From a virus, in IMG/VR virus record IMGVR_UViG_3300028802_000065, positions 1 through 20,314 of that record: DNA of 20,314 nucleotides. One strand, given 5' to 3'. The position numbers and the translations under genes were made by a program. Under the pieces are notes generated by a model, which saw only the letters and a list, made by a program, of their open reading frames with translations, had not been told where the DNA came from and ran no database searches. The stretch's first letter is position 1. Every line of letters begins with the position of its first letter. Of the stretch, positions 1 through 20,314 are shown in pieces.

Positions 1-2
1 TG

Positions 3-1832
3 CCGGAAGCTACGCCGGTGATTTCGATGTTTCAATACATCAGCGGCAACAATCAGCGCATGTATGCCGGCAACCTCAACAAGCTCTATGACGTTACGAC
101 ACCTGTGCCGGTAGAGATCAAGGCAGGACAAACATCAGGCAATTACGTCGCCAGTCAACTTGCCAACCAGGGCGGCGACTGGATGATTGTGCTGAACGAC
201 ACAGGCGACTACCCGCTGCGCTTCAACGGCACCACTTGGGTTACGCTGGATGGCACGCCGCCCGCCAACTGGCTCAACAACACCGCCTACGCCGTCAACG
301 CCAAGGTGACTGACGCGGCTGACGGCTCGCGGTGGAAGTGTGCCGTGGCGAATACCAGTGCCGCCGCTGGTACCTTTGCGGACGATCGTATTGCGCGCCC
401 GACTTTCTGGACCGCGGATCCGTTTGCGTCAGACGGCACAAGCTGGATCACCGGGCCGCCAGAGTCCAGCGTCGTCAACGGCCACAACCTGACCTATGTC
501 TGGAAATATCGCGGCCACCTCTACTTTATCGAGGGCGGCACCATGAATGCGTGGTATCTGCCGATCAACGCGGTTGGCGGCACGCTGCAAATGATTCCGC
601 TGGCGGGCGCGGCCACCAAGGGCGGCAAGCTGCTCGCCGGGTTTACATGGTCGCTCGACGCCGGCGACGGCATTGACGACAAGTGTGTCTTCATGACCGA
701 CCAGGGCGAGCTGCTTATCTTTACAGGCTCGGATCCGTCGACAATCGCCAACTGGCGCCAGGAAGGCCGATACCAGACCTCGGTGCCGCTCGGCATGAAC
801 GCCCATATCGCGGTTGGTGGCGACGTGATGATTGCTACCGTCGACGGCATTATCCCGATCTCGGCGTCCATTACCAAAGACAGCATGCAGCTCGAGTTGG
901 CCGCCATCACCCGCGCCATCAAGCCCATGTGGCGCGACATGGTGAACGCCAGGCGCACCTATCCATGGACGCTGTGCAAATTTGACGAATACGGCGGCAT
1001 GTTTGTCACCTACCCCGGCGGCAATGCCGGCAGCTGGTATTGCGGCGTAGTCAACATCGCCACTGGCGCCTGGGCGCGCTATGTCGGCTGGGACGCCATG
1101 TGTTTCTGCCGGCTGCGCTCCGATATGTTTTTTGGGACGCAAACCGGCAAGATCATGCAGGCCGATCGCACCGGCTATGACGATGGCGTGCCATACATCG
1201 CGACAATGGTGGGCGGCTGGGAGATGTTTTCCTCGCAGTCGTCAACGCTGGTATGGCGCCAGTCCAGGGCCGCCTTCTCTGCCCGCGCCGGCGAGCCGTT
1301 TCAGCCGCAACTGTCCTGCACCACCGATTACGTCATTGTTATTCCAACACCGCCATCCGCGGCGCCGGATCCGGGCGTGCCGGATGTCTGGGGTCAGGGG
1401 CTGTGGGGGCCGGATTTAAGACCACCCGTTCCGTCGCCGTGGAAAAACGCCACTGTGTATACTGCGGGTACAAAAGTGTACGACCCCGCCAATCCACCCA
1501 ACAACACGCTCTGGACTGTTGCCATTAATCATACCAGTGCGGCAACTGGCCTGTTTGCCGCCGATCGCGCCGCGCACCCAACCTACTGGACAGCAGCAGG
1601 AACATATCCATCCCCCCCGACGCCGACCGCACCGGAGATAGCGCAATACGCGCAGTGGGATCAGCCGGCGCCGTCGACGCCTGTGATGCGATCCACCATG
1701 TGGATATCGATCGGCTACACCGGGTTCAGTCATGCCCCGATTTGCCAGGTGACGGTGGCGCAGCAGGCGCGGCCGGAAGTGGAATTGATATCGATTGCAG
1801 CGACGTATGAACCTGCTGGCGTCAACGTCTAG
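3..1832 (+). CDS. Phage tail/connector structural protein, 5' end outside the window
   Basis: The frame is open to the left edge, so the gene probably begins upstream; a GTG at 18 and an ATG at 27 are possible internal starts, but no good ribosome-binding site precedes them. The 604 residues after the GTG are rich in beta-type sequence, with W/G/Y repeats. The C-terminal part (RSTMWISIGYTGF, then RPEVELISIAATYEP) resembles short-tailed-phage proteins often annotated as tail or packaged-DNA-stabilisation (P22 gp10-like) proteins; that match is from memory and moderate. Two similar modules of about 50 residues lie at 270-413 and 1440-1592. The position just before the ejection-type genes fits a connector or tail-hub role. 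The exact family is uncertain. Confidence 0.6.
   Translation, partial: PEATPVISMFQYISGNNQRMYAGNLNKLYDVTTPVPVEIKAGQTSGNYVASQLANQGGDWMIVLNDTGDYPLRFNGTTWVTLDGTPPANWLNNTAYAVNAKVTDAADGSRWKCAVANTSAAAGTFADDRIARPTFWTADPFASDGTSWITGPPESSVVNGHNLTYVWKYRGHLYFIEGGTMNAWYLPINAVGGTLQMIPLAGAATKGGKLLAGFTWSLDAGDGIDDKCVFMTDQGELLIFTGSDPSTIANWRQEGRYQTSVPLGMNAHIAVGGDVMIATVDGIIPISASITKDSMQLELAAITRAIKPMWRDMVNARRTYPWTLCKFDEYGGMFVTYPGGNAGSWYCGVVNIATGAWARYVGWDAMCFCRLRSDMFFGTQTGKIMQADRTGYDDGVPYIATMVGGWEMFSSQSSTLVWRQSRAAFSARAGEPFQPQLSCTTDYVIVIPTPPSAAPDPGVPDVWGQGLWGPDLRPPVPSPWKNATVYTAGTKVYDPANPPNNTLWTVAINHTSAATGLFAADRAAHPTYWTAAGTYPSPPTPTAPEIAQYAQWDQPAPSTPVMRSTMWISIGYTGFSHAPICQVTVAQQARPEVELISIAATYEPAGVNV
270..413 (+). repeat. 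W-module, copy 1
   Basis: Encodes a module beginning W-L-N-N-T-A-Y and ending SAAAGTFADDR..P.FWT. The order W..Y..G/N..V..W...H/N.S...F..DR....WT resembles CBM5/12-type carbohydrate-binding modules (inference). It pairs with copy 2 at 1440-1592. Confidence 0.6.
1440..1592 (+). repeat. W-module, copy 2
   Basis: Encodes W-K-N-A-T-V-Y-T-A-G-T-K-V and ends HTSAATGLFAADR..P.YWT. It is clearly related in protein sequence to copy 1 but diverged in DNA, so it is an old internal domain duplication and not a recent repeat. A Pro-rich linker precedes it. Confidence 0.6.
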
Positions 1833-1843
1833 GGAGATGCGTA

Positions 1844-2374
1844 ATGCCTGCCATGGGCGATCTGTTTGCGCCGGCGTACCGCGCCAATGACCCTGCCTCG
1901 GTGCAGGCAGTAAACGACTGGCAAAACCGCGTCTTTAACGTCAACCCTGGCAACATCGAACAGACCCGCAAGCCGGTATCGTTCAATACCGGCAACCCCG
2001 GCGGCATGCTGGATCCAGAGGCGCTGCGCATGATGGCGCAGGGTGGCCCGTATGACTTCAATGCGCGGCGCAATGCCATCGCCGCGGCGGCGGTCCCGCA
2101 GTCGGCAGCGCAGCCGACCGGCCAGCAATCCTACTACGGCCAAGGCGGCACCGTTCCTACGGCGACCGGCGGCACCATGCCGGTCATGGGCGGCTATGAC
2201 AGCCTCGGCGGGCCATCTAACCCGTATGGCGGCCTGAGCCTGAGCGACTGGAATACGTTTGTCGGCCATGTCGGGCTGGACGCCGCCAACAAGTGGGCGG
2301 CACAGAATGCGTCAAATACGCCGGCATATCAGCCGCCGACCTATCAAGACAGCTTTGGGGGAGGGCCGGCCTGA
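1844..2374 (+). CDS. Low-complexity virion-type protein (176 aa), function unknown
   Basis: ATG start with a GGGAG ribosome-binding site at about 1832-1836. The protein is Gly/Ala/Pro/Gln-rich and shows no catalytic motif. Residues 132-151 (SLSDWNTFVGHVGLDAANKW) closely match residues 76-95 of the gene at 3482, and residues 74-83 (ARRNAIAAAA) are a weak version of a helical motif found in four further downstream proteins. The stop overlaps the next start (TGATG at 2372-2376), so the two are translationally coupled. Given its place between a tail/connector gene and the ejection-type genes it is probably a minor virion component; that is inference from order only. Confidence 0.7.
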   Translation: MPAMGDLFAPAYRANDPASVQAVNDWQNRVFNVNPGNIEQTRKPVSFNTGNPGGMLDPEALRMMAQGGPYDFNARRNAIAAAAVPQSAAQPTGQQSYYGQGGTVPTATGGTMPVMGGYDSLGGPSNPYGGLSLSDWNTFVGHVGLDAANKWAAQNASNTPAYQPPTYQDSFGGGPA

Positions 2375-3468
2375 TGGACTTGGCGAGCGGTTACTCCGAC
2401 AGCATCAATTACGGCAACGGCTACACGCCGCTGGCTACAGGTGCGATCAACAACAACAACGCCGAGTATCAGCGCAATCAAATGGCGATGGCGCTGATGG
2501 CGCAGCAGGCACAGAACAATGTGTTTGCGTCGGGCGGCGGCTTCGGCGCTCAGACTGCGGCCTACGCGGGTGCGGGCGCCGACTACGGGCGTGCCGTCGG
2601 TGGTGGCGGCAACATCTACGCCCCCAGCGGCGGCGGTGGCGGCTACGACGACGGCGCGGGCCTCAACCCGTCTACCGCGCCAAACGGCGGTTACTACAGT
2701 ACCCCCGCCGGTCAGGCTTTTCTGTCAAGCTACGGTCAGGGCGGCATTGGCAGCGATCGGGGCCAGTCACCAAACCAGCCGGGTAACGCGCCGATCCCAT
2801 CGTTCTGGCAGGGCGTGCGGGACTGGACCGGCATGACCTCGGGGGCGCCGTCATACGAGGCACCTGCGCCAACGCCGCAAGCCTACGGCCCCGGATACTT
2901 CGATAACACCTTCGGATCTGCCTACGCCAATCAGCAAAAAGCCATCAACTCGAAACCCGTGGACTGGGACAAGACCTTTAGTACCATTACTGCACCCTAC
3001 GCGCCGCAAACCTATTCCGGCGGCGGCATTGGCGGTGAAAGTGCGCGCGACCCCTATCAGGACTGGCTGAAAAACAGCGCCGCTTCTCAGGGATACGGGG
3101 CATTACCCCCGTTCTGGCAGGGGTTGCGGGACATGGTAGGCATGGGCCAGCCCGGCGGCGGCGGTTACGACCCCTATGCGGGCCTCGGCAACCGGGGCCA
3201 GCCGGGCGTCACCGACCCGATGGGCTACGGCACGGGCGGCTACCAAGGCAACGCCATTCCCGATCAAGCCCAGCAGAACCGCGCCCCGGTTCAGGGCGGC
3301 ATGACCGATCCGTTCTGGCAGAACATCCGCGACATGATGGGCGCGGACCCCAAGGACCAGTCCCGCCTGCCGCAAGGCGGTGCGTACCCCGGCGCGACCA
3401 ACCCCAATTACCAGCCGGGAGGGATGGCCCCGCAACTGCCTTACCAGTCCTGGCTGAACGCCAGTTAA
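2374..3468 (+). CDS. Gly/Gln/Pro-rich virion-type protein with three FWQ boxes (364 aa)
   Basis: The ATG at 2374 is chosen over upstream in-frame starts because it overlaps the preceding stop and follows GGGGGAGGG at 2357-2366. The protein is rich in Gly, Tyr, Gln and Pro, probably extended or disordered. Three copies of FWQ[GN][VLI]RD[WM]xG lie at 2803, 3112 and 3313, and a second short motif (YQDWLKNS in the middle, YQSWLNAS as the last residues) occurs twice. Residues 31-45 (EYQRNQMAMALMAQQ) carry the helical motif shared with neighbours. No enzyme motif is visible. It may be a multivalent binding or scaffold component of the virion (inference). Confidence 0.7.
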   Translation: MDLASGYSDSINYGNGYTPLATGAINNNNAEYQRNQMAMALMAQQAQNNVFASGGGFGAQTAAYAGAGADYGRAVGGGGNIYAPSGGGGGYDDGAGLNPSTAPNGGYYSTPAGQAFLSSYGQGGIGSDRGQSPNQPGNAPIPSFWQGVRDWTGMTSGAPSYEAPAPTPQAYGPGYFDNTFGSAYANQQKAINSKPVDWDKTFSTITAPYAPQTYSGGGIGGESARDPYQDWLKNSAASQGYGALPPFWQGLRDMVGMGQPGGGGYDPYAGLGNRGQPGVTDPMGYGTGGYQGNAIPDQAQQNRAPVQGGMTDPFWQNIRDMMGADPKDQSRLPQGGAYPGATNPNYQPGGMAPQLPYQSWLNAS

Positions 3469-3481
3469 GAGGACGACGATC

Positions 3482-4327
3482 ATGCCCGGAGAATTTGACC
3501 ACCTGTTTGCGCAGATGTCGCCAAGCGACATCGCCACCTGGCAACGTACCATGCAGGGTGCCGGCCAAGGTGCCGAGGCGGCCGGTGCGCTTGGCGCGCG
3601 GGGCAACCAGCGTGACGCCATTGCGCAGGCGATGATGGCGCAGCAGGCCCCACAGCAATCCTACGGCGGCGGCGGGGGCTGGGGCGGCGGTTTGCCTGCC
3701 GGAATGTCTGCCAGCGACTGGGCGACGTTCTCTGGCATCGTGGGGCGAGACGCCGCTAATCAGTGGCTCGGCAACCAGAACCTCGGCAGCGGTCCCGGCA
3801 ACAGTGGCGTTGCGGGACCAGGAGGCGCGCCTAGTGGTGGCGGCTTCAGTGGTGGCGGATACGGGCCGTTTGGTGGCGGCAACAACGCCGCAGGCCCGAC
3901 CGGCATCAGCCCCGCCGAGGCCAACCAGGCAGCAGGTCAGCAAGGCCGCGGGGCGCCCGCGCCCAGCCCTGGCCTAGAGACTGGCTACGCCACTACAAAC
4001 GATGCCGGTAAGGGCGTCTATGGTGGCTGGGGCCTGAATGCTGCCCCAGTCGGTTACGGCTACACCGGGAGTATGTTTGGGGTCGACTACGCCCCCACAC
4101 CGCCGCCTAACGACCTTACCGACCCGGCGTGGGGGCTGGTGATGAGTGTCGACCCATCAGTCATGAATGCCATGGCTATGAGCAGCGTAGGCGGCGACGG
4201 CGGCGTCGGCGTCAGCGGTGTTGGCGGCAACGGTAGCGGCATGGGCGGCGGCTACGGCTTCGGCATAGGGCCAGGCCCTGGCGGCGAGAACAGCGTCGGA
4301 CCCAACGGCGAGGCAGGACCATACTGA
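3482..4327 (+). CDS. Gly-rich virion-type protein (281 aa), related to the gene at 1844
   Basis: ATG start preceded by AGAGGA just after the previous stop. The N-terminal 60 residues look helical and contain NQRDAIAQAMMAQQA (about 42-56), the motif shared with its neighbours. Residues 76-95 (SASDWATFSGIVGRDAANQW) match the module in the protein encoded at 1844, about 15 of 20 identical. The remainder is Gly/Ser/Asn/Pro-rich and ends in a run of Gly-rich segments. The stop overlaps the next start (TGATG at 4325-4329). The function is unknown; order and composition suggest a structural or internal virion protein that shares a fold element with the gene two places upstream. Confidence 0.7.
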   Translation: MPGEFDHLFAQMSPSDIATWQRTMQGAGQGAEAAGALGARGNQRDAIAQAMMAQQAPQQSYGGGGGWGGGLPAGMSASDWATFSGIVGRDAANQWLGNQNLGSGPGNSGVAGPGGAPSGGGFSGGGYGPFGGGNNAAGPTGISPAEANQAAGQQGRGAPAPSPGLETGYATTNDAGKGVYGGWGLNAAPVGYGYTGSMFGVDYAPTPPPNDLTDPAWGLVMSVDPSVMNAMAMSSVGGDGGVGVSGVGGNGSGMGGGYGFGIGPGPGGENSVGPNGEAGPY

Positions 4328-4821
4328 TGATCGACTACGTCTATGGATACGACGACATCGTCTCACAGTTCGTGGCTGCGCTGGTTCCGGCGTGGCAGGG
4401 TCGCGAGCTGCCGCCGATGATGGCGACCATAGGCGTAATCGCCAGGGACAACGCGCAGGCCCCTGGCCGGCTGGTGGCCGGCATCCTCTATAACAACTAC
4501 GACAAGCAGGCCGGCGTCATCGAGATGTCGGGCGCGGCGCTGCCTGGCGCCAGGTGGCTGACGCGGCAGACCATGTGGCGTGCCTACCAGTATCCGTTTC
4601 TACAGCTCGAGTGCCAGATGGTGGTCAACCGCGTGCCGGCCGACGACAAGAGCCAGCTGCGGCAGCTGATCGCCTTCAACTATGAGCCGACGCTACTGCC
4701 GCGCATGCTCGGCCGCGATCGTGACCTGGTAGTGTGCCGCCTGACGCGCGAGGCCTGGGAGGCCAACAAGTTCAATCGCCGGCGTGATGTCCTGCACGTC
4801 GCAACCGAAAAGGCCGCATAG
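4327..4821 (+). CDS. GNAT-fold acetyltransferase-like phage protein (164 aa)
   Basis: Unlike its neighbours this is a globular sequence. The segment LVAGILYNNYDKQAGVIEMSG, then ARWLTRQTMWRAYQYPFLQLECQMVVNRV, follows the strand-strand-helix-strand order of GNAT acetyltransferases found beside tail and ejection genes in short-tailed phages. The usual GNAT acetyl-CoA loop (Q/RxxGxG/A) is not obvious, so it may be a structural relative without activity. It starts on the TGATG overlap and ends directly against the next ATG. Its target is unknown; modification of a virion or host protein is possible. Confidence 0.6.
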   Translation: MIDYVYGYDDIVSQFVAALVPAWQGRELPPMMATIGVIARDNAQAPGRLVAGILYNNYDKQAGVIEMSGAALPGARWLTRQTMWRAYQYPFLQLECQMVVNRVPADDKSQLRQLIAFNYEPTLLPRMLGRDRDLVVCRLTREAWEANKFNRRRDVLHVATEKAA

Positions 4822-5130
4822 ATGCCCGCTCAGTATCTCGATCCGAGATCCGATCAGCAGCGTAACGACATCACGCAGGCGCTGATGAATATACAAAACC
4901 CGCCGCCGCAAACGCCTATGCCGTCAATGCCGCAGATGCCGATGGCTGACGCTGGCGGCATTCCGCAACAGGGCATGCCCGCCCCAGGTGGAATGCCGCC
5001 CCAGGGGGCGCCTATTGGGCAAGGTATGCCCCCGCAAGGAATGCCGGGAATGATGCCGCAGCAGGGCATGCAGGCGCCCATGGCGCAGCAACCCATGCAG
5101 CAGCCAATGCAGCAACCGATGCAGAGGTAG
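4822..5130 (+). CDS. Met/Pro/Gln/Gly-rich small protein (102 aa)
   Basis: ATG immediately follows the TAG of the GNAT-like gene. Residues 1-25 hold the conserved-looking part, with QQRNDITQALMNIQ at about 12-25; the rest is an extreme low-complexity tail of MPQ/GMP units ending in three PMQQ-type repeats. Such a tail is probably disordered. The head carries the same helical motif as several adjacent virion proteins, so this may be a minimal form: a targeting helix plus a disordered tail. An AGAGGTAGG ribosome-binding site for the next gene overlaps its stop codon. Confidence 0.65.
   Translation: MPAQYLDPRSDQQRNDITQALMNIQNPPPQTPMPSMPQMPMADAGGIPQQGMPAPGGMPPQGAPIGQGMPPQGMPGMMPQQGMQAPMAQQPMQQPMQQPMQR
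5092..5127 (+). repeat. 12-bp tandem repeat, three units (PMQQ, PMQQ, PMQR)
   Basis: Units of 12 bases, each encoding P-M-Q-[QR], repeat three times just before the stop, differing by single bases. They are likely to vary in copy number by slippage. Confidence 0.8.
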
Positions 5131-5133
5131 GCC

Positions 5134-6555
5134 ATGAGCTTTCTATTCGGAGATCAACCGACACCGCCTAACCCGTACCAGACTGCGGCTGCTCAGACCG
5201 GCACCAACGTCTCGACGGGCGTGGCGAACTCTTTTCTCAACAACGTCAACCAAAACACGCCTGACGGCTCGCTGCGCTATGACGTAACGGGCAACTACGA
5301 CTGGACTGACCCGTCTACCAACCAGAAATACAACCTTCCAACGTTTACCTCGACGCAGTCGCTGTCACCGCAGGGCCAAGCCATCAAGTCGCAAACCGAC
5401 GCCGCTAAGATGAACTTGGCCGGCCTCGCCAATTCGCAGTCGGCCAGCATCTCAAACCTGCTCGGCAGTGCTTTTAATCCTTCAGGTGCGCCGTCAGGCG
5501 GCAACGCGCAGAACCTCGCCAATATCGGCCAGGCGCAAACGTCATTTGGCGACAGCGGGGCAATCCAGAAATCGCTCAGTGGCGACTACGGCGACATCAC
5601 GCGCTCTTACGGTCCCGCCGACAATTTCTCGGCCGATCGGCAGCGGGTTGAAGATAGCCTGATGCAGCGCATGAATCCGCAGTTGCAGCAAGAGCAACAG
5701 CGGGTCCAGCAGCAGCTTGCCGACCAGGGCATCCGCTACGGCTCGCAGGCCTACACCTCGGCCATGGACAACTATTCTCGCCAGGCCAACGACGCGCGCT
5801 TTGGCGCCATTGGCCAGGCCGGCCAGGAACAGGCGCGCATGAACCAGATGGCCGCGGCGCAGGCCGAGTTTCAAAACGCGGCGCAAAACCAGGGTTACCA
5901 GCAGGCGCTCGGCGCCGGCACGTTCGCCAACGCCGCGCAGGGGCAACAATACTCCCAGGATGCGGGGCGGGCCTCGTTTGCCAATGCCGGCCTGGCGCAG
6001 CAACTGGCGCAGCAGCAGTCCATCTTCAACGCGCAAAACGCGCAGCGCAATCAATCCATGCAGGAGCAGTACGCGCAGCGCAACCAGCCGCTTAACGAGA
6101 TCTCGGCGCTGATGAGCGGATCCGCGGTGAGCCAGCCTAACTGGCTTAATTCGCCGTCGTCACAGATAGCCACTACCGACATAGGCGGGCTGATTAACAA
6201 CAACTTCAATCAGCAGATGCAAAATTATCAAGCTCAGTCTGCCAATACCAACAACCTGCTCGGCGGCCTTCTTGGCCTTGGCGGTAAGTTGGGCGGGGCC
6301 GCAATCATGTCGGACGAGCGCGTCAAGGATGTTGGGCCTAAGATGGCGACAGTATTCGCCGCTGACCCTGACGGCGAGAAGCACACGCTGCCGATATATG
6401 CGTTCAACTATAAGGATGACCCAAGCTCAACCACGCATATCGGGCCGATGGCGCAGGATGTCGAAAAAATCGACAAGAGTGCTGTCACCACGCGCAAGGG
6501 CGTTAAGCACATCTATCCCGCTAAGGTGATGGGCAACATTCTGAGGGCCTCATAA
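5134..6555 (+). CDS. Gln/Ala-rich virion protein with C-terminal Peptidase_S74 self-cleaving chaperone domain (473 aa)
   Basis: ATG with AGAGGTAGG just upstream. Residues 1-100 are Asn/Thr/Ser-rich; about 170-330 are Gln/Ala/Asn-rich and probably long helices (LQQEQQRVQQQLADQG, GNAQ-type repeats). A glycine hinge (LLGGLLGLGGKLGG) leads to MSDERVKD, whose S393 and K398 fit the Ser-Lys dyad of the S74 intramolecular chaperone, followed by PIYAFNY and HIGPMAQDVE typical of that family. In known members the domain trims itself off after helping a trimer fold. At about 81 residues after the cleavage Ser it is at the short end. The helical body and the neighbours suggest an ejection or tail-interior protein more than a fibre. 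Stop and next start overlap (TAATG). Confidence 0.75.
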   Translation: MSFLFGDQPTPPNPYQTAAAQTGTNVSTGVANSFLNNVNQNTPDGSLRYDVTGNYDWTDPSTNQKYNLPTFTSTQSLSPQGQAIKSQTDAAKMNLAGLANSQSASISNLLGSAFNPSGAPSGGNAQNLANIGQAQTSFGDSGAIQKSLSGDYGDITRSYGPADNFSADRQRVEDSLMQRMNPQLQQEQQRVQQQLADQGIRYGSQAYTSAMDNYSRQANDARFGAIGQAGQEQARMNQMAAAQAEFQNAAQNQGYQQALGAGTFANAAQGQQYSQDAGRASFANAGLAQQLAQQQSIFNAQNAQRNQSMQEQYAQRNQPLNEISALMSGSAVSQPNWLNSPSSQIATTDIGGLINNNFNQQMQNYQAQSANTNNLLGGLLGLGGKLGGAAIMSDERVKDVGPKMATVFAADPDGEKHTLPIYAFNYKDDPSSTTHIGPMAQDVEKIDKSAVTTRKGVKHIYPAKVMGNILRAS

Positions 6556-11789: not shown

Positions 11790-11798
11790 GAGGCCAAC

Positions 11799-11975: not shown

Positions 11976-11978
11976 GGG

Positions 11979-12074: not shown

Positions 12075-12076
12075 CC

Positions 12077-12273: not shown

Positions 12274-12313
12274 GCCGGCACCTGTTGTGATGAACGGGCG
12301 GTATGGTGTAGAG

Positions 12314-12758: not shown

Positions 12759-12850
12759 CCCGCCCTCCACTCGCTGATGATGGCGGCATAGATCGTAATC
12801 AGGATCACCACCGTAATGGTGGCGGCCAGGATGTAGGTCAGATCGTACAT
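12755..12850 (-). CDS. Very short single-pass membrane peptide (31 aa)
   Basis: ATG at 12850 on the minus strand; MYDLTYILAATITVVILITI continues YAAIISEWRAG. One hydrophobic helix (about residues 6-24) fills most of it. A weak AGAAGG precedes the start. Its stop forms an ATGA overlap with the next gene's start, good evidence that it is translated. By coincidence or not it has the same length and topology class as the peptide at 11979-12074 on the other strand. Function unknown. Confidence 0.55.
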   Translation of the reverse strand: MYDLTYILAATITVVILITIYAAIISEWRAG

Positions 12851-13074: not shown

Positions 13075-13116
13075 GTGGTGCTCCGGTTGAAAACGAAGCA
13101 GTAGTCTGAGGCCGGC

Positions 13117-13132
13117 ATTGACACAAGTCAAT
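13117..13132. promoter_or_regulatory. 16-bp palindromic operator between divergent transcription units
   Basis: ATTGAC-ACAA-GTCAAT, perfect 6-bp arms with a 4-bp centre. The left arm contains the rightward -35 (TTGACA) and the right arm offers TTGACT as a leftward -35. One bound dimer could block both. The HTH protein encoded at 13156 is the obvious candidate ligand. Confidence 0.6.
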
Positions 13133-13146
13133 ACTGGGGCTAGCCT
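13118..13146 (+). promoter_or_regulatory. Putative rightward promoter of the HTH regulator, near-leaderless
   Basis: Consensus TTGACA (13118-13123), 17-bp spacer, weak -10 TAGCCT (13141-13146). Transcription would start within a few bases of the ATG at 13156, which has no ribosome-binding site, as in lambda cI from PRM. Confidence 0.5.
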
Positions 13147-13155
13147 TAATACATT

Positions 13156-13392
13156 ATGAACAGACACCCGACAGTAAAGAAGCTACTTGCCGACATCGAG
13201 GCGTACCTCGACAAGACCGGCACGTCACGCAGTACCTTTGGCCTCCAGGCCACAGGCGACGGCTACCTCATCAGCCGCATCGAGCAAGGCAGAACGCCGA
13301 CACTCGACACGATCGAGAAGGTCTACCGCTACATGGACCGCAAGACTAAGGCAGTACGTTCATCACACACCCGGAGAAACCATGTTACATAA
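13156..13392 (+). CDS. Small HTH transcriptional regulator (78 aa), repressor/Cro-like
   Basis: ATG at 13156 with no Shine-Dalgarno sequence. Residues about 11-60 (LADIEAYLDKTGTSRSTFG, then DGYLISRIEQGRTPTLDTIEKVYRYM) have the layout of small alphaproteobacterial XRE-like helix-turn-helix proteins: a helix, a turn with TGTSRSTF, a recognition region and the R..G..P.L.T......Y pattern. A basic tail follows. It sits at a divergent promoter with a palindrome, next to a leftward operon, the classic place for a phage switch regulator. It is likely to bind that palindrome and control both directions. Too small for a repressor with a self-cleavage domain. The stop lies inside the next gene. Confidence 0.7.
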   Translation: MNRHPTVKKLLADIEAYLDKTGTSRSTFGLQATGDGYLISRIEQGRTPTLDTIEKVYRYMDRKTKAVRSSHTRRNHVT

Positions 13393-13741
13393 AATACTCA
13401 TCACGGCTGCATTGCTGGCCTCGCCGGCAACGGCGCAGGATGTTGAATACATCACGCCAAAAATCCCAACCGAGGCCGAGAAGATCGAGGCGCTCAAGCT
13501 GGCCTATGTCCTCAATGGCAATTCGATGGTTGGCCCCACCATTGACCTCACCGACCCCAAAGTGCTGGAAGCCTACCGCGCCGCCATCGCCGCCGCCGAC
13601 CCTGTCATCGAGGACAGCGGGCCAGGGATCTGGCCCAAGCTGGAAAAGCCCAAGCTGGTCAAGAAGGCGGAAGCCGACATTTGCACACGCCACAACATGC
13701 GCAAGTCAATCCGCGGCAAGTCATGGAGGTGCGTGCGATGA
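13382..13741 (+). CDS. Small secreted protein with signal peptide (119 aa)
   Basis: ATG at 13382 with CCGGAG seven bases upstream; the frame is open further left but the signal peptide fixes this start. MLHKILITAALLASPATAQ is a typical signal sequence with an ATA-Q type cleavage site around residue 18-19. The mature part is helical (TEAEKIEALKLAYVLNG, DPKVLEAYRAAIAAADP) and ends in C-T-R-H-N-M-R-K...W-R-C-V-R, where two Cys could form a disulphide in the periplasm. This C-terminal signature appears familiar from rhizobial and phage small proteins but has no function I can name. It overlaps the preceding regulator by 11 bases and the next gene by ATGA. Confidence 0.7.
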   Translation: MLHKILITAALLASPATAQDVEYITPKIPTEAEKIEALKLAYVLNGNSMVGPTIDLTDPKVLEAYRAAIAAADPVIEDSGPGIWPKLEKPKLVKKAEADICTRHNMRKSIRGKSWRCVR

Positions 13742-14007
13742 GCGAGTACATGCCCGAATACAAATTTGCCGCCATTGCCGAGCAGCTGGTGGCGTCCCTG
13801 ATCAAGGGCGCCGAGGACAACGTCCACGAAGCCAATGCCCTGCTCGACAGCGTCAGGATCCTGACCGAGGAAATCCGCAAGCACGTCGAGGAACACACTC
13901 AGATGCTCAACGACGCCAGCCACCGCACCAAGACCTATGGCGAGCGGGTGCTGGAGGCGCACAAGGAGTACATCAACGGCGGCAAGCATGAGGTGCCGTC
14001 ACCATGA
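13738..14007 (+). CDS. Small helical protein (89 aa)
   Basis: ATG at 13738, overlapping the previous stop, with GGAGG at 13725-13729 and eight bases between. The sequence (MSEYMPEYKFAAIAEQLVAS) continues as amphipathic helix with heptad-like hydrophobic spacing (VHEANALLDSVRILTEEIRKHVEEHTQML) and is probably a coiled coil that oligomerises. The tail is basic and hydrophilic. No catalytic motif, no known family. The stop overlaps the GcrA start by ATGA, so the two are co-translated. Confidence 0.65.
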   Translation: MSEYMPEYKFAAIAEQLVASLIKGAEDNVHEANALLDSVRILTEEIRKHVEEHTQMLNDASHRTKTYGERVLEAHKEYINGGKHEVPSP

Positions 14008-14444
14008 CCGGCATTGTCTGGACCGTCGAAATCATTGTTGCCTTCCGCGAGCTGCACGCCAACAAGGCCGGATTATCGTTCTCCGAGATAGCGGCAAAGC
14101 TGTCTGCGGCGTTCAACATCGAGCTGTCGCGCAACGCCTGCATAGGCAAGGCCAGGCGGCTGGGCCTGCCTATGCGGGACGCTACGCCGCGCAAGCCGCC
14201 CAAAAGGGAGAAAAAGATGCGTGTTCGTGTCGACGCTCCTATTCCGCCCAGGATCAGGAACAGAACGATCGGCCCCGGCATAGACATCCTCCAGCTTAAT
14301 CACAGCAACTGTCACTGGCCGCTCGGCGGGGTCGAGGATCATCCGCCGTATCTATACTGCGGAAACCCTGCCGAGTTCGATCGACCGTACTGCTATGATC
14401 ACTGCAAGAAAGCCTACAACTCTCCAACCAGGCAGTGGCAATGA
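14004..14444 (+). CDS. gcrA: GcrA-family cell-cycle transcription regulator (146 aa)
   Basis: The N-terminus (VWTVEIIVAFRELHANKAGLSFSEIAAKL, then SRNACIGKARRLGLP) matches the GcrA DNA-binding domain: W6-T7, a helix-turn-helix and the NA.IGK..RLGL signature. A basic linker (about 60-85) is followed by the C-terminal sigma-binding region: L.Q.NHSNCHWPLG with C103 and W105, YLYCG with C119, and PYCYDHCKKAY with C130, H133 and C134. In Caulobacter, GcrA binds sigma-70 and activates promoters carrying CcrM-methylated GANTC. A phage copy could redirect host transcription or serve phage promoters. It is coupled by ATGA overlaps to genes on both sides. Family call is firm; the role is inference. Confidence 0.85.
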   Translation: MTGIVWTVEIIVAFRELHANKAGLSFSEIAAKLSAAFNIELSRNACIGKARRLGLPMRDATPRKPPKREKKMRVRVDAPIPPRIRNRTIGPGIDILQLNHSNCHWPLGGVEDHPPYLYCGNPAEFDRPYCYDHCKKAYNSPTRQWQ

Positions 14445-14914
14445 CCATCATCCTCGCCATCGACCCCGGCCTCACCGGCGCTCTGGCGGTCTACATGACG
14501 GGCCTGCCCCATCGCGTGTCGGTCTACGACATGCCGGTGGTCGACGGCGAAATCAACCACCACCAACTCAGCCACATGATCCGGTCATGGGCGCCCGACG
14601 TGGCCTGTATCGAGCGGGTGGGGCCAATGCCGCGCGATGGCGTCAAGCAGGCCTGGCGTTTTGCTTCTGCCTACACCGCCGCGCGGGTGGTGGTGGCGCT
14701 ATTGAATATTCCAACAACACTGGTGACGCCAGGCAGCTGGAAGAAGGCTATGAAGGTGGCCGGCGGGCCAGACGGCAAGGAAGAGTGCCGCGCAAAAGCC
14801 ATCCAAATGTTTCCGGCGTGCGCAGAACACTTTGGCCGCAAGAAAGATGCTGGTCGCGCCGAGGCGGCACTGCTGGCGGTCTACGCATCACAACAGGGGA
14901 CACTCCATGACTGA
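14441..14914 (+). CDS. ruvC: RuvC-like Holliday junction resolvase (157 aa)
   Basis: The ATG at 14441 overlaps the GcrA stop; a GTG two codons earlier is possible. The fold is RNase H-like: IILAIDPGLTGALAV with catalytic D8 in strand 1, ACIERVGPMP with E58, and KKDAGRAEAALLAVYA with D136 and E141 in the last helix, matching the acidic residues of RuvC in phage-type variants. At 157 residues it is slightly shorter than bacterial RuvC (about 170). It would cut four-way junctions made during recombination-dependent replication or before packaging. The next gene starts inside its last codons, and an exonuclease gene lies a few hundred bases downstream. Confidence 0.85.
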   Translation: MTIILAIDPGLTGALAVYMTGLPHRVSVYDMPVVDGEINHHQLSHMIRSWAPDVACIERVGPMPRDGVKQAWRFASAYTAARVVVALLNIPTTLVTPGSWKKAMKVAGGPDGKEECRAKAIQMFPACAEHFGRKKDAGRAEAALLAVYASQQGTLHD

Positions 14915-15161
14915 TCAATATTTCACCCTGGTTTTCAGGGGCAGCATTCGCGACTTCAAAGAACCGCTAAAAACGGAAACCCCGTTCGGCATCCCGGTTG
15001 CCGCCTGCGTTGGTGATGCCTTCGCGGAAACCGACCGCATCGAACAACTGGAGGCGGCGCTGCGGAAGATCGCCAATGGCGAGGATAATGGTCGCTTAAT
15101 TGGTGTCACCGGAATGTACGAGATCGCCCGCGCCGCCCTCCAACCGGAGCAGGACAAATGA
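14907..15161 (+). CDS. Small protein with RIEQLEAAL helix, first of a duplicated pair (84 aa)
   Basis: ATG at 14907 overlaps the resolvase stop, with AGGGGA at 14894-14899; a longer in-frame start inside the resolvase gene is rejected. The N-terminal half (MTDQYFTLVFRGSIRDFKEP) is a small strand-rich region. The C-terminal half has TDRIEQLEAALRKIANGED and ARAALQPEQDK, a short coiled coil plus tail common in small phage proteins. That half is repeated in the next gene with near-identical DNA. Function unknown. Overlaps the next ATG by ATGA. Confidence 0.65.
   Translation: MTDQYFTLVFRGSIRDFKEPLKTETPFGIPVAACVGDAFAETDRIEQLEAALRKIANGEDNGRLIGVTGMYEIARAALQPEQDK
15035..15070 (+). repeat. Direct repeat A, copy 1 (copy 2 at 15202-15237)
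   Basis: Thirty-one identical bases (15035-15065 and 15202-15232) encoding part of RIEQLEAALR, then one mismatch and four more matching bases, 167 bp apart. A second pair of about 30 bp, differing at two positions, encodes the common C-termini at 15132-15161 and 15296-15325, 164 bp apart. Confidence 0.85.
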
Positions 15162-15325
15162 ACGAAGCAGAACTGGGTTTTGAATTGAAAAATGCCTTAG
15201 CCCGCATCGAACAACTGGAGGCGGCGCTGCGGGAGATTGTTGACTTCCCGAACATTGGCGAGCAGGCCGCACGGCAGATGTCACTGATCGCCAGTGCCGC
15301 CCTCGCACCGGAGCAGGACAAATGA
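15158..15325 (+). CDS. Small coiled-coil protein, second of the pair (55 aa)
   Basis: ATG at 15158 overlaps the previous stop by ATGA. MNEAELGFELKNALARIEQL continues EAALREIVDFPNIGEQAARQMSLIASAALAPEQDK. The helix and the last residues (APEQDK) copy the end of the preceding protein, but the strand-rich N-terminal half is missing. It therefore looks like the product of a partial tandem duplication. It overlaps the nuclease gene start by four bases. Function unknown; it may pair with its paralogue through the shared helix. Confidence 0.65.
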   Translation: MNEAELGFELKNALARIEQLEAALREIVDFPNIGEQAARQMSLIASAALAPEQDK

Positions 15326-16056
15326 CCATCGAATACGACCACCACTCCCCATCCAGCTGCAACCTGTTTGCCGCAGCCCCCGCCATGTGGGTGGCCGAAA
15401 AGATCCTGGGCGAAAAGCGGCCCGCCTCGGCCAGCATGCACCGCGGCACTGCCACCGAGGCCGGCGTGGCGCACGGTCTTAAAGACCTCAAAGCCGATTT
15501 GCCGGCATGCATCAAGGTGGCGCAGTCCAGGTATGATGCGCTGATGGCGCTGTCTCCCGACGCCAGGCGAACCGCCTACCGCGGCGACCTGGCGCCAATG
15601 GTGGCCTCTGGCCTCAAGGCGTTGCGCCCCTACGGCGAGCCGTCAGAGCTACAGGGTCGCATGGAGTGGAAGCCCGATGAGCTAAAGTTTCCCATCATGG
15701 GGTTCTTCGATTTCAAGTGGGCGCACAAGGGTGCGCTGGTGGAGCTGAAGTGTACCGAGAAGATGCCGTCGAAGATCAAGGTTCCCCACGCCAGGCAGGC
15801 CGCCTTCTACGCCACCAGTGACAACATCGACACGCGATTGACTTATGTCACGCCAAAGAAGTGCGAGACATACCAGCTGGAAAACATCAGGGAACACCGG
15901 CAGGCACTGGTGAACATCGCCAAGACCATCGAGCGACTACTGTCGGAAAGTGATGATCCGCAATATTTCATCGATCACACAATCCCAGACCTTGACTCTT
16001 TCTATTGGTCAGGGCCTGCTGCTCGGCAAATGGCCTACAAGTATTGGGGGGTCTGA
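15322..16056 (+). CDS. PD-(D/E)XK nuclease, RecB/Cas4/YqaJ-like exonuclease (244 aa)
   Basis: ATG overlaps the previous stop. The core is plain: HRGTATEAG with E46 in the first helix, PIMGFFDFKW with D130, ALVELKCTEKMP with E141 and K143 (E-x-K), and the helix HARQAAFYA with Q159 (QxxxY-type). This is the order of two-metal nucleases of the RecB/lambda-exonuclease superfamily. It begins MTIEYDHHSPSSCNLFAAAP, typical of phage members where the N-terminus recognises DNA ends. It probably resects double-stranded ends for strand annealing, with the resolvase upstream and an SSB-like protein downstream. Whether it is a processive exonuclease cannot be told from sequence alone. Confidence 0.8.
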   Translation: MTIEYDHHSPSSCNLFAAAPAMWVAEKILGEKRPASASMHRGTATEAGVAHGLKDLKADLPACIKVAQSRYDALMALSPDARRTAYRGDLAPMVASGLKALRPYGEPSELQGRMEWKPDELKFPIMGFFDFKWAHKGALVELKCTEKMPSKIKVPHARQAAFYATSDNIDTRLTYVTPKKCETYQLENIREHRQALVNIAKTIERLLSESDDPQYFIDHTIPDLDSFYWSGPAARQMAYKYWGV

Positions 16057-16140
16057 AAAGACGCCCCTCCTCCGATCCTGGGTTCGCCAGGGTGGCATCC
16101 GCAGCAGGCCTTATTGCTGTATGTGAAAGAGAGAAACGCT

Positions 16141-16872
16141 ATGTCTACAGGTAACGGACAACAGAAGAATATCTTTGGTTTTTCGACTGCTCCCTCCACC
16201 GGAGCCGACTTTACCCCCATCGTCAAGTACGACGCCCGCGCAGGCCGCGTGTTTCGTGTCGATCGCACGCAAGGCGTCGACGGCTTCACCGGCGAGCAAG
16301 TCGATATTACAGCGATGTTTAGAGCCGTGTTCGATCTCGAGAATGTCGAGGTGGGCTGGATGCTGTTTGCAGCCGGCCAGGCGCCGTCCATGGCGCTGGC
16401 GCCTCTCTCTGACGTAACTGCCGGCAAGGCATTTCCGCCCGAGCCGTCTACCTTACACAAGCAAGGCGTTCGCGTGCTGATCAAGCTCGCCAAGGCCTGC
16501 GGTGGCGACAAGCCGGTGCGGGAGATTGCGTCGGTTGCAAAGGCGTTCCTGGGCGCCATGGAGCAACTCTATCTCACCTACCTCGATGAGCGTGAAAAGA
16601 ACAAGGATCCGAACGGCAACTACCAACTGCCCGTGGTGTCCTTGCTTAAGACCGAGCCGGTGACGAGCGGTAGCGGCGCGCAGAAGTCGACCAACTACCG
16701 GCCAACGTGGAAGATCGATGGCTGGGTGCCGCGGCCGGATGATCTCATCTACATGCCGGCTGCTGCATCTAGTGCTGTGGCGGGTGCCGCACCTACTACC
16801 GGCTCAACGCCTGTGCCGCCGCCGCCGGATTATTCGGCGCCCAAGCATAATCTTGCTGACGACTTCGGTTAA
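16141..16872 (+). CDS. Probable ssDNA-binding or recombination-associated protein (243 aa)
   Basis: ATG at 16141 preceded by a purine-rich AAAGAGAGAAA; the frame is open about nine codons further left from a TTG, less likely. A strand-rich globular part covers about residues 1-205 (TPIVKYDARAGRVFRVDR, VDITAMFRAVFDLENVEVGWM, TNYRPTWKIDGWVPRPDDL), followed by an Ala/Pro/Thr-rich linker and a short acidic end, NLADDFG. A disordered linker with an acidic, aromatic-containing tip is the layout of SSB proteins and T7 gp2.5, and the location between an exonuclease and a primase-helicase fits. I do not recognise the globular domain itself, so the assignment rests on layout and context. Confidence 0.5.
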   Translation: MSTGNGQQKNIFGFSTAPSTGADFTPIVKYDARAGRVFRVDRTQGVDGFTGEQVDITAMFRAVFDLENVEVGWMLFAAGQAPSMALAPLSDVTAGKAFPPEPSTLHKQGVRVLIKLAKACGGDKPVREIASVAKAFLGAMEQLYLTYLDEREKNKDPNGNYQLPVVSLLKTEPVTSGSGAQKSTNYRPTWKIDGWVPRPDDLIYMPAAASSAVAGAAPTTGSTPVPPPPDYSAPKHNLADDFG

Positions 16873-16880
16873 GCGGGTCT

Positions 16881-16925
16881 AAAAGAAAAAGGGCTGCGAG
16901 GGCGGTGACACGAACCCTCGCAGCC
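16881..16925 (-). terminator. Strong hairpin, terminator-like in the leftward direction
   Basis: GGCTGCGAGGG (16892-16902) and CCCTCGCAGCC (16915-16925) form an 11-bp perfect stem with a 12-nt loop. The A-rich tract AAAAGAAAAA before it (16881-16890) becomes TTTTTCTTTT after the hairpin on the minus strand. On the plus strand only TTCCC follows, so rightward termination would be partial at best. Confidence 0.65.
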
Positions 16926-16964
16926 TTCCCATGATCCCATCTTACCCGAAATCACAGGTGTACC

Positions 16965-19013
16965 TTGAATATATCATTCAATGACGAGTTCGCCACCCCC
17001 GCACAATGGGCGCGAGAGTACCGCCATCTAGGCCTGCAAATCATGCCGGGATACATGCCTGGCGAGGTGCCCAAGGGCGAAGCCTGGAAGCGTCCCAGGG
17101 TCAAGGACTGGCGCCAGTACCAGGACGTGCTGGTTACCGACGAAGTGTTCCTGCCCTGGTACGGCCCCGGCGGCGAGCATATCAGCCGGCCTAACATGGG
17201 CACCATATGCGGGCGTGCTTCCGGCAACCTCTTCATCATCGATCTGGACGTACACAAGAAGCCAGAGGCCGCAGCGTGGTGGGAGGGCGTGGTTGCTACC
17301 CACAACAACCGCATGGCGCTGGAGACGGCCGAGCAGCGCACGGGCGGCGGCGGGCGCCAGATCCTGTTCTACGCCCCGGCAGGCTACCGCACCCCCACCT
17401 GCAAGACTTCGATCGGCGTGGACATCCGCGGCCAGGGAGGCTTCGCCGTACTAGCGCCCAGCATCCACGACAGCGGCGGCACCTACGCCTGGCTCGAGGG
17501 CATGGCGCCGTGGGACGAGGCCGGCATCATGATGGCCCCGGACTGGCTCTTACGCGAGATAGAGGCCCTGGTGGCGTTGCACGGCGGGGACACTACCGTC
17601 CACCGCACAACGTCAGGCGCCGGCGGTAATGGCGCCGCCTATGACGGCTTCGGGCACCAGACAGACCTGCGCGAGCAAAAGATGACCGAACTGGTATGGG
17701 GCGCCGTGCTTGACCTCTACCGCACTTCCCCCATCAAACCGGACCCGGTCGCTGAAGCGGTAATTGTTGCAGAAAAGTATCAGGTGTACGAGGACCAGGT
17801 GGCCCCCCGGCAATACGACCCTGCCCTGTCCAAGGCCGAGATGCTCGATAGGGAAGGCCGCGGGCGCGGGTTGTTTCATGTGAAATGGCAGTACGCCATG
17901 CGGCAGTGGAACACCAAGGTGGCTGAAGAGGCCGGCAAGCCAGGCAAGGATAAATTCGGAACCGACAAGACCGAGGCCATAGTTTATCCTTCAGGGACTT
18001 CCCTAATCCTTACATCCGCCGAGTTCCTGGCCGGCTACACGCCGCCCGCCTACCTCATCGATGATGTCATACAGCGCGGCTACCTCTACAGCCTCACCGC
18101 CCGCACCGGGCACGGCAAGACCGCCGTGGCACTCTACATGGCCCAGGCCATCGCCCGCGGCGTCGACATGCACGGCTGCAAGGTACTGCCCGGCACCGTG
18201 CTGATCCTGGCCGGCGAGAACCCCGACGACGTGCGGGCCAGATATTTCGTGCTCGGCCACACCTACGGGTTTGATCCAACACAGGCCAAAATCCGCTGGA
18301 TCCCAGGCGTCAAGCACCTGCCCAGCCACATGGACATCATCCGCAAGGAAACCGATGAAATTGACGACCTCGTCCTGGTCCTGGTCGACACCGCGGCGGC
18401 ATACTTTCCCGGCACCGAAACCAACTCCAACTCCGAGCAGGGCGAGTACGCCAGGCTGCTGCGGCAGATGACGTTTCTCAAGAACAAGCCGGCCGTCATC
18501 GCGCTGTCCCACCCCGTCAAAAACGCCTCCAAAGACAACCTGCTGCCCATGGGCGGCAGTGCCTTCCTCAACGAAGTCGACGGCAACCTGACCCTGTGGG
18601 CCGGCGTCGATCGCCAGACCACCCTGCACTGGCAAGGCAAGTTCCGGGGGCCTGAGTTTGACCCCATGACGTTCGAACTGGTGGAGGAACACTGCACCGC
18701 GGTCAAGAACGAGGCCGGCGTGCTGCTGCCGTCCGTCGTCGCCAAGCCCATGGCAGAGGTCGAAGTAGAGGCAGCAGAGGACAGGGCCGAGCAGGAGGAG
18801 AACAGTCTAATGCGGGCCATGTACGGCGCCCAGGCGGCATCCTTCACCAAGCTGGCTGATCAACTGGGGTGGAAAAAGCGGAGGGTCCAGAGGCTCATGG
18901 AACGCTTGGACGAAGGCAAGTTCGTGGAGCAGAAAAGAAACAAGAAATACATGCTTACGAACAAGGGCACCGAGGCGATCGGGGGTTTAAAGATAGGTCA
19001 CCGCCATGATTGA
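16965..19013 (+). CDS. Replicative primase-helicase: Prim-Pol plus RepA/DnaB-type ATPase (682 aa)
   Basis: TTG start at 16965 with CAGGTG five bases upstream; no in-frame ATG precedes it before a stop. The N-terminal Prim-Pol (archaeo-eukaryotic primase) domain covers about residues 8-200: NLFIIDLDVHK with D93 and D95, TGGGGRQILF at 126-135 (most relatives have His where Q132 stands), and GVDIRGQGGFAVLAPS with D153. A linker follows to about 350. The helicase domain has Walker A TARTGHGKT (378-386), Walker B LVLVLVD (469-475) and a sensor-like ALSHPVK (513-519). A winged-helix end (about 605-672; KLADQLGWKKRRVQRLMERL) closes it. It would unwind and prime phage DNA. Ends overlap the next gene by eight bases. 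Confidence 0.85.
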   Translation: MNISFNDEFATPAQWAREYRHLGLQIMPGYMPGEVPKGEAWKRPRVKDWRQYQDVLVTDEVFLPWYGPGGEHISRPNMGTICGRASGNLFIIDLDVHKKPEAAAWWEGVVATHNNRMALETAEQRTGGGGRQILFYAPAGYRTPTCKTSIGVDIRGQGGFAVLAPSIHDSGGTYAWLEGMAPWDEAGIMMAPDWLLREIEALVALHGGDTTVHRTTSGAGGNGAAYDGFGHQTDLREQKMTELVWGAVLDLYRTSPIKPDPVAEAVIVAEKYQVYEDQVAPRQYDPALSKAEMLDREGRGRGLFHVKWQYAMRQWNTKVAEEAGKPGKDKFGTDKTEAIVYPSGTSLILTSAEFLAGYTPPAYLIDDVIQRGYLYSLTARTGHGKTAVALYMAQAIARGVDMHGCKVLPGTVLILAGENPDDVRARYFVLGHTYGFDPTQAKIRWIPGVKHLPSHMDIIRKETDEIDDLVLVLVDTAAAYFPGTETNSNSEQGEYARLLRQMTFLKNKPAVIALSHPVKNASKDNLLPMGGSAFLNEVDGNLTLWAGVDRQTTLHWQGKFRGPEFDPMTFELVEEHCTAVKNEAGVLLPSVVAKPMAEVEVEAAEDRAEQEENSLMRAMYGAQAASFTKLADQLGWKKRRVQRLMERLDEGKFVEQKRNKKYMLTNKGTEAIGGLKIGHRHD

Positions 19014-19815
19014 GATTGCCTGGGCGCGCAGGACCGAAGACGGCCGGATTGTAGGGGTCGACCAGGTAGCCGGCGGGCTGGCGTGCGCCTGCGTCTGTAC
19101 TCAGTGCGAGCGCACCCTCGTCGCCGCCAAGGGCGATATCTACCGGCACCACTTCCGGCACCACGCCGACGGCTCGACGTGCGGGGGAGGGCAGGAGACG
19201 GCCCTGCATATGCTCGCCAAGGATATCGTGATGCGGGCAGCGTCCATCCTCCTGCCCGACGCCGAGGCCAGGGACATCGCCTCGGCAGAACTGGAACCTG
19301 TGCTGGGCGAGGTCAGGCCCGACGTGCTGATCCACACGCCGCAAGGTGATGTCGCCATCGAGATCGCCGTGGAACATCGTACCGGGGAGGTCAAGATCGA
19401 CCGCCTGGCCGGCATGAACCTGCCCGCCGTCGAAATCGATATCAGCATCTACCGTGGCGTGCTTATGAGCGCCGAGGAGCTGGAGAAGGCCGTCCTCTCA
19501 ACCGCCGCCAGGCGATGGCTCAGGGTCAGGAAGGAGCGGGAGAAGCCCCCCTCGCCCCGCAAGCCCAAGAACTGGATAGCGCACTGGCGTGGTGCGCCGG
19601 GGCAGTTCCCTGTTGCGCGTATTCCAGTGTCGGCGCCGGCGGTCGCCAGGGTCGAGGCGCCAGTCTCAGCGCCGTCAGCCCCCCTTGAGCACTACTGCCA
19701 CTGTGGCCGGTGGGGACCGTTTGGGTATGGCGTTAACCTTCAGCAGGGGAGGCTTGGGAGGTGGTATTGTACCGAACACAGGCTGGAACTTTTAAACCGA
19801 ATTGTCGTACCGTGA
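19006..19815 (+). CDS. CoiA-like nuclease with terminal zinc-binding modules (269 aa)
   Basis: ATG at 19006 overlaps the helicase stop. The N-terminal part has CTQC (C31, C34), then IYRHHFRHH and C59, a zinc-ribbon-like head as in CoiA competence proteins, followed by QETALHMLAKDIV. The nuclease-type core is ELEPVLGEVRPDVLIHT (D106), VAIEIAVEH (E119, H124) and PAVEIDIS, matching the CoiA/restriction-like PD-(D/E)XK pattern with an A in place of the usual catalytic Lys position (K130 could substitute). After a Pro/Ala/Val linker, the last 41 residues carry CHCGRWGPFGYGV and WYCTEH (C231, C233, C255, H258), a second zinc site. Probably a DNA-processing enzyme working with the helicase; substrate unknown. 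Confidence 0.65.
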   Translation: MIEIAWARRTEDGRIVGVDQVAGGLACACVCTQCERTLVAAKGDIYRHHFRHHADGSTCGGGQETALHMLAKDIVMRAASILLPDAEARDIASAELEPVLGEVRPDVLIHTPQGDVAIEIAVEHRTGEVKIDRLAGMNLPAVEIDISIYRGVLMSAEELEKAVLSTAARRWLRVRKEREKPPSPRKPKNWIAHWRGAPGQFPVARIPVSAPAVARVEAPVSAPSAPLEHYCHCGRWGPFGYGVNLQQGRLGRWYCTEHRLELLNRIVVP

Positions 19816-19990
19816 AAAGTTCCATCTGCATCGTACGTACCGCGGTACGACGGCGGTACGACGGGTACGAACCAGAATTAACATCATGAAAACTAAACAC
19901 TATTTTCGTACCGATACGTGCGTATGCTGCATACTTTGTTGCAGCGTACGTACGCGTAGTAAGCGTAGCGTAAGCGTCCGGTACTTCTTA
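19805..19990. other. GTACG-repeat region with AT-rich core: candidate replication origin or operator cluster
   Basis: TCGTACC or its complement GGTACGA occurs at 19805-19811, 19844-19850, 19855-19861, 19864-19870 and 19906-19912. Perfect palindromes CGTACCGCGGTACG (19836-19849) and GCGTACGTACGC (19944-19955), and a near-perfect GTATGC-t-GCATAC (19922-19934), add to them. GGTACGAA (19864-19871) and TTCGTACC (19905-19912) flank a 33-bp stretch that is about 73% A+T in a G+C-rich genome. AAGCGT repeats at 11-bp spacing (19961, 19972). Position next to primase-helicase fits an origin; repressor operators are the alternative. Confidence 0.5.
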
Positions 19991-20013
19991 ACGGAATAGA
20001 CCTTGAAGTGACA

Positions 20014-20025
20014 CATAACGTTATG
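20014..20025. promoter_or_regulatory. 12-bp perfect palindrome, possible operator
   Basis: CATAACGTTATG is a perfect inverted repeat 36 bases before the start of the HTH gene at 20062. It differs from the GTACG palindromes and may be the binding site of another regulator. No convincing -10/-35 pair was found around it. Confidence 0.4.
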
Positions 20026-20034
20026 CCACAGTAA

Positions 20035-20053
20035 GCCTCCACTTAACGGAGGC
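20035..20053 (+). promoter_or_regulatory. Hairpin that sequesters the ribosome-binding site of the next gene
   Basis: GCCTCC (20035-20040) pairs perfectly with GGAGGC (20048-20053), loop ACTTAAC. GGAGG is the Shine-Dalgarno of the ATG at 20062, so the fold would hide it and reduce translation until opened. Six G+C-rich base pairs, stable enough to matter. Confidence 0.55.
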
Positions 20054-20061
20054 GATATTCG

Positions 20062-20247
20062 ATGGCGCACAGATATCCAAATGCCCTCGGGCACACGATC
20101 AGGTCTGCCGCAAGGGAACTCAAGGTAGACGAGAAGACCTTCAGGGTGGCGGTAAGAAACGGGGAGGTGAGCTGTGTCGACTTCGGCAACGTGAAGAGGA
20201 TCACATTCGCAGAAGTGGAAAGGCTACGGAAAATTTTCAAAAGGTAA
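20062..20247 (+). CDS. Small excisionase-like/HTH_17-type DNA-binding protein (61 aa)
   Basis: ATG with GGAGG nine bases upstream. The sequence (SAARELKVDEKTFRVAVRNG, then EVSCVDFGNVKRITFAEVERL) follows the MerR/excisionase pattern: S-x-A-A..L.V...T...A...G......G...R....V..L, with a short wing between helix and end. Such proteins act as DNA-bending accessory factors in excision or as small transcription regulators. No integrase gene is in the window, so excision is unproved; regulation of the adjacent repeat cluster is equally plausible. Its translation may be controlled by the hairpin over its ribosome-binding site. Confidence 0.65.
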   Translation: MAHRYPNALGHTIRSAARELKVDEKTFRVAVRNGEVSCVDFGNVKRITFAEVERLRKIFKR

Positions 20248-20259
20248 GAGGCCCATCAC

Positions 20260-20314
20260 ATGGCGAAACCCAAGCAAGACACCCGCCCCCTTGGCGCCCC
20301 CAACAGCTGGGCCA
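20260..20314 (+). CDS. Start of another gene, cut by the window edge
   Basis: ATG with AAGAGG about nine bases upstream, 12 bases after the previous stop. Eighteen codons are visible: MAKPKQDTRPLGAPNSWA. The basic, Pro-rich beginning gives no identification. Confidence 0.6.
   Translation, partial: MAKPKQDTRPLGAPNSWA

Follow-up and report, generated by a model that had tools for sequence, protein, structure and literature searches.

Near-complete loss of the CcrM target GANTC in a clade of short-tailed soil phages

Avoidance of GATC is classical in coliphages such as T7 and phiX174, as reported in PMC5014478 and in a 1984 paper as cited there. For GANTC, the target of the methylase CcrM, which alphaproteobacteria use in running the cell cycle, depleted pelagiphages and the Pelagibacter NP1 provirus have been published (PMC9516812), and our re-test of pelagiphage HTVC011P gave 1 GANTC against 85. 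Alphaproteobacterial phages with GANTC methylases of their own also exist (PMC5537653, PMC7139368). Herein, we describe a large clade of soil podoviruses with near-complete GANTC loss, often combined with a gcrA gene, which is new as far as the open-access literature subset shows.

The window, by which we mean the whole stretch of 20,314 nucleotides that was analysed, is a 20.3 kb virus record (IMG/VR IMGVR_UViG_3300028802_000065) with an exactly counted G+C content of 61.4%, and is part of a soil short-tailed phage. Its features are as follows.

1-20314, no strand: the window, a GANTC-depleted short-tailed phage fragment with 4 sites
18-1832, plus strand: tail protein of phrog_5107 (a family named amidase), with a phiGT1 homologue that bears the annotation tubular tail B
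462-466, no strand: residual GAGTC, within the ORF 18-1832
593-597, no strand: residual GATTC in Met-Ile-Pro codons; GATCC stands here in 28 of 28 aligned homologues that share these residues
5134-6555, plus strand: virion structural protein with a C-terminal Peptidase_S74 domain
5673-5677, no strand: residual GAATC in Met-Asn-Pro codons; GAACC stands here in 31 of 31 aligned homologues that share these residues
14004-14444, plus strand: phage GcrA (PF07750), with DNA-binding and sigma70-interacting parts
14435-14914, plus strand: RuvC-like Holliday junction resolvase
15994-15998, no strand: residual GACTC, within the ORF 15322-16056
16965-19013, plus strand: primase-polymerase with an AAA_25 domain

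PHROG labels the family of the 18-1832 product amidase, probably wrongly, as the phiGT1 homologue has the annotation tubular tail B or phage stabilisation protein. The window is related to short-tailed phages that measure about 40-44 kb. The cultured ones are the Rhizobium phages RHph_N2 and I3_18, the Sulfitobacter phages pCB2047-C and phiGT1, and EBPR podovirus 2, and about a hundred further loci lie on IMG/VR contigs. A prophage search for the host with the single tail protein gave no match, and a search with the tail alignment returned distant prophages only, mostly from Rhizobiales, with no clade member among them.

GANTC in the window and in related soil phages

The first-pass annotation had found, by eye, four GANTC sites where independence predicts about 70 at about 61% G+C, and had described GATC as common. 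The exact count gave the same four sites (GAGTC 462, GATTC 593, GAATC 5673 and GACTC 15994), an independence expectation of 70.3 at 61.4% G+C, and 120 GATC in the window, seven of them within the first 1 kb. Markov models of order 1, 2 and 3 predicted 61.6, 53.1 and 31.9 GANTC, and 100 dinucleotide shuffles of the window had a mean of 61.2 (sd 7.5). When codons were shuffled synonymously within each gene (500 shuffles, 17 reading frames, 16.9 kb), 31.7 GANTC were expected (sd 4.1, minimum 21), which corresponds to an observed-to-expected ratio (o/e) of 0.13 and a z of -6.7. The depletion thus stands against the third-order Markov model (4 versus 31.9) and persists under codon shuffling (4 versus 31.7±4.1). 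Since codon and amino-acid composition already disfavours GANTC, the figure of 70 overstates the gap about twofold; composition accounts for about half of the 4-to-70 gap, but not for the depletion.

Under the codon shuffle, GANTC was the rarest against expectation among the 256 words of the form XYNZW (0.13; next, 0.57), while GANNTC (0.97) and GATC (1.11) were normal. All four forms of GANTC were equally low, with one site each and an o/e of 0.11-0.15. GGNCC was also low in the window (0.58, codon shuffle). A role of the residual sites as promoters was rejected: 4 of 4 sites in the window lie in coding sequence, as do almost all of those left in the clade.

The same pattern was seen across the clade. 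In 21 related soil records (742 kb pooled), 57 GANTC were found against 2,284 expected (0.025); the next-lowest XYNZW word was CTNAG (0.47), and GATC stood at 1.09. GA and TC separated by a 0-, 2- or 3-bp gap were undepleted, and both classes of GANTC were avoided (GAWTC, 0.016; GASTC, 0.038). The codon-shuffle z was about -7 to -14 in each full-length record, with per-record expectations resting on a simple greedy ORF caller. Among 74 loci of at least 7 kb, some of them overlapping in one contig, 42 had zero GANTC and 71 had an o/e below 0.1. Five records of 35-44 kb (G016, G022, G024, G029 and G040) contained no GANTC against 97-117 expected, and three others (G002, G004 and G033) contained one each.

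Two further observations were made in these records. Other palindromes were low in the 21 records under an order-2 Markov model (CCTAGG, 0.14; CGTACG, 0.15; CACGTG, 0.18). In record G041 (L158:1-9000), 19 of its 28 GANTC lie within the first 9 kb, which encodes an S24-type repressor, a ParA-like ATPase and an HTH_36 protein and adjoins GANTC-poor phage genes; this part is either a recently acquired lysogeny and partition module or a chimeric assembly.

Selection on the DNA word and its phylogenetic reach

Aspartate or glutamate followed by a TCN serine codon necessarily spells GANTC. In the clade, serine after these two residues is encoded by TCN in 21 of 714 cases (2.9%), versus 65.5% after other residues. 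The corresponding values are 72% versus 66% for T7, BUCT555 and Mx8 together, and 66% versus 70% for 50 kb of phiCbK. In addition, [DE]S dipeptides are scarce in the clade, and conserved residues at GANTC positions show synonymous recoding in homologues. The shift from 65.5% to 2.9% therefore points to selection on the DNA word itself. We hold it as almost certain that genome-wide purifying selection removes GANTC in this phage lineage, mainly via synonymous codon choice.

Could composition, codon usage or neighbour-dependent mutation explain the rarity of GANTC with no selection acting on the site? Codon and amino-acid makeup does reduce the expected 70 sites to roughly 32-38, and the scarcity of [DE]S dipeptides is in keeping with such an effect. 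However, an 8- to more than 50-fold depletion is left after codon shuffling, only the exact gapped palindrome is affected, and the serine codon choice flips only after Asp or Glu. Given the codon-shuffle and serine-codon tests, we regard this explanation as refuted, with next to no chance of being correct.

A second alternative is that the phages have merely taken on, by amelioration, the ordinary GANTC shortage of alphaproteobacterial hosts. In host genomes GANTC is depleted at least 2-fold (PMC3973325), with which our values for host chromosome stretches (0.31-0.52) agree, and the cultured alphaproteobacterial relatives lie at the host level (0.30-0.39), as does Bradyrhizobium phage ppBjS10J-1 (0.33). 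Partial sequences gave 0.39 for roseophage SIO1, 0.51 for phiCbK and 0.40 for Bajun. Relatives from non-alphaproteobacterial hosts were at 1.00 (Mx8) and 0.78 (BUCT555), and T7 was at 1.36. The clade, at 0.025 pooled, is about ten times lower than hosts and cultured relatives, and many of its records have zero GANTC, which makes amelioration very improbable. Collectively, the claim of the first-pass annotation that the phage is selected to avoid GANTC is strongly supported: the effect is at the synonymous level, extends across the clade, and is absent in relatives from non-alphaproteobacterial hosts.

In a FastTree phylogeny of the tail protein 18-1832, in which some forks are open, 93 of 109 rows had an o/e under 0.1 and fell in a single, supported clade (99 rows) that excludes the host-level relatives; depletion thus tracks phage phylogeny. 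A small nested group within the depleted clade (G034, L070 and L076) is back at 0.20-0.35; no methylase family was detected in these records, which are fragments. Five phage-like loci (L253, L267, L252, L245 and L247) from alphaproteobacterial or proteobacterial MAGs, several of rumen or gut origin, showed the opposite word choice, with GATC low (o/e 0.04-0.19) and GANTC mildly low (0.57-0.79).

A 471 kb Rhizobiales contig closes with a related phage that starts near a tRNA-Thr at about 441.4 kb and encodes a primase-polymerase alongside portal, terminase and tail genes. The last 26 kb of the contig, counted from 444.9 kb onwards, hold two GANTC, versus an o/e of 0.27-0.29 in the 40 kb ahead of the element's region. 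The ORFs tested included no integrase and the second border lies off the contig, and we therefore treat this element as a putative provirus. The genome that bears it has a GcrA and matches to the PF01555 methylase family, one of the latter scoring like the CcrM-type methylase of R. johnstonii, a protein in which the RAMA domain was confirmed. A PF00589 integrase was absent from 22 soil records and present in RHph_N2, I3_18, pCB2047-C and EBPR podovirus 2. Strict lysis as the cause of GANTC loss was rejected: the putative provirus beside the tRNA-Thr is GANTC-poor, and phiGT1, without an integrase match, is at the host level.

GcrA and the candidate selecting agents

The window GcrA matched PF07750 with 78.5 bits (cut-off, 26.9), aligned to the solved C. 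crescentus GcrA over the DNA-binding and sigma70-interacting parts, and keeps the RNA.IGK..RLG motif, with a 5-residue insertion before it. In most GcrA proteins of the clade, the two helices ahead of RNACIGK are likewise separated by about five residues more than in C. crescentus GcrA, which might alter DNA recognition. Protein searches with GcrA found no close phage relative. A truncated, sigma-only GcrA was rejected, the short forms being start-codon artefacts. In a 6.9 Mb uncultured Rhizobiales MAG (G045, the genome of L223), about eight gcrA-like genes lie on different contigs, and its contig C123 contains a GANTC-poor phage stretch.

The first-pass annotation had also paired GANTC loss with GcrA. 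The co-occurrence holds, as the domain was confirmed and gcrA exceeded the cut-off in 15 contigs of the clade besides the window, of 42 scanned. The causal link does not, since the two traits dissociate both ways: phiCbK and Bajun carry GcrA yet retain host-like GANTC (0.51 and 0.40), and three near-full-length depleted records (G033, G008 and G010; o/e 0.01-0.08) had no gcrA by profile or signature search. GcrA was thus rejected as the cause of GANTC loss; its carriage neither requires nor explains the loss. In a phage genome nearly without GANTC, phage GcrA has almost no methylated target on the phage's own DNA. As a separate trait, it would have to act on host promoters or host sigma70 and not via methylated GANTC of its own DNA. 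It is conceivable, though improbable, that a GANTC-free genome and phage GcrA form one strategy, in which methylated GANTC would serve as a host-only address steering GcrA and sigma70 to host promoters, untitrated by phage DNA, while the phage would be invisible to CcrM-coupled control.

As for the selecting agent, we propose that a GANTC-recognising activity of the host distinguishes host DNA from that of the phage through CcrM methylation. Most likely this would be a restriction nuclease; one example is a solitary enzyme of the HinfI type, from which orphan CcrM would shield host DNA. Fast-replicating phage DNA is expected to be poorly methylated, and loss of sites would then protect it without the need to carry a methylase. 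Such an agent would have to read GANTC anywhere in the phage genome. Methylases of PF01555, PF02086 and PF05869 were found neither in the window, a fragment, nor in the clade records scanned; EBPR podovirus 2 (0.30) and phiGT1 (0.39) carry PF01555. Orphan CcrM can make DNA resistant to restriction enzymes that share its specificity, and could allow a solitary enzyme to be maintained (PMC3488263). Since no adenine methylase was detected in the clade, and since solitary restriction enzymes can find shelter under orphan methylases, a nuclease sparing CcrM-methylated DNA fits best, and we give a restriction activity of this kind about an even chance of being the agent. Against it, the authors who reported equal depletion in phages of Pelagibacter found no R-M system in the hosts (PMC9516812). 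Moreover, RHph_N2 retains 60 GANTC with no adenine methylase detected, and therefore GANTC restriction cannot be general.

A less probable, though still substantial, possibility is that CcrM and GcrA themselves select: GANTC on many-copy phage DNA could titrate CcrM or GcrA-sigma70, or could be methylated and bound by GcrA, disturbing phage transcription or replication. Nearly all alphaproteobacteria have CcrM, and methylated GANTC is bound by GcrA (PMC3973325, PMC3667746), gcrA is frequent among the clade phages, the GANTC-poor putative provirus sits in a chromosome with a CcrM-type match, and CcrM titration or interference with GcrA and RNA polymerase predicts identical depletion. However, the depletion is coding and genome-wide rather than a promoter effect, and the GcrA-bearing phages phiCbK and Bajun remain at host-like GANTC.

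GANTC might also be shed as the counterpart of GATC in coliphages, in avoidance of methyl-directed repair or another CcrM-coupled process. GATC is lost to an equal magnitude in T7 (0.04) and Mx8 (0.03). Yet we know of no GANTC-directed MutH-like nicking established in alphaproteobacteria. Restored GATC sites reduce the phiX174 mutation rate, but the cause is unsettled even for GATC (PMC5014478). We therefore consider this route unlikely, and prefer a restriction activity that spares CcrM-methylated DNA.

Comparison with known systems

The existence of 35-44 kb records free of GANTC is a clear signal that DNA with this word is harmed in alphaproteobacteria by some factor, either distinct from CcrM or acting through it. 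CcrM is regarded as a purely regulatory orphan methylase, and such clean phages suggest that its mark doubles as a self tag.

The pelagiphages, whose hosts have CcrM, resemble this clade in having lost nearly every copy of the CcrM word, with the loss split by phage clade (PMC9516812); they are AT-rich marine autographiviruses, whereas the present clade consists of G+C-rich soil podoviruses near RHph_N2 and pCB2047-C, often with gcrA. T7 and phiX174 have likewise lost the target of a host orphan adenine methylase, but there the pair is Dam and GATC in gammaproteobacteria, and here it would be CcrM and GANTC, with GATC normal. Phages that encode GANTC methylases deal with the same word by methylation, whereas this clade lacks the word and has no detected adenine methylase. 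The phiCbK-like phages (PMC3556154) share a phage-encoded GcrA with the window; unlike the clade, they are giant and keep host-like GANTC (0.40-0.51 in the stretches tested). The clade thus pulls apart two ideas that are usually joined, the carriage of GcrA and the avoidance of its DNA target.
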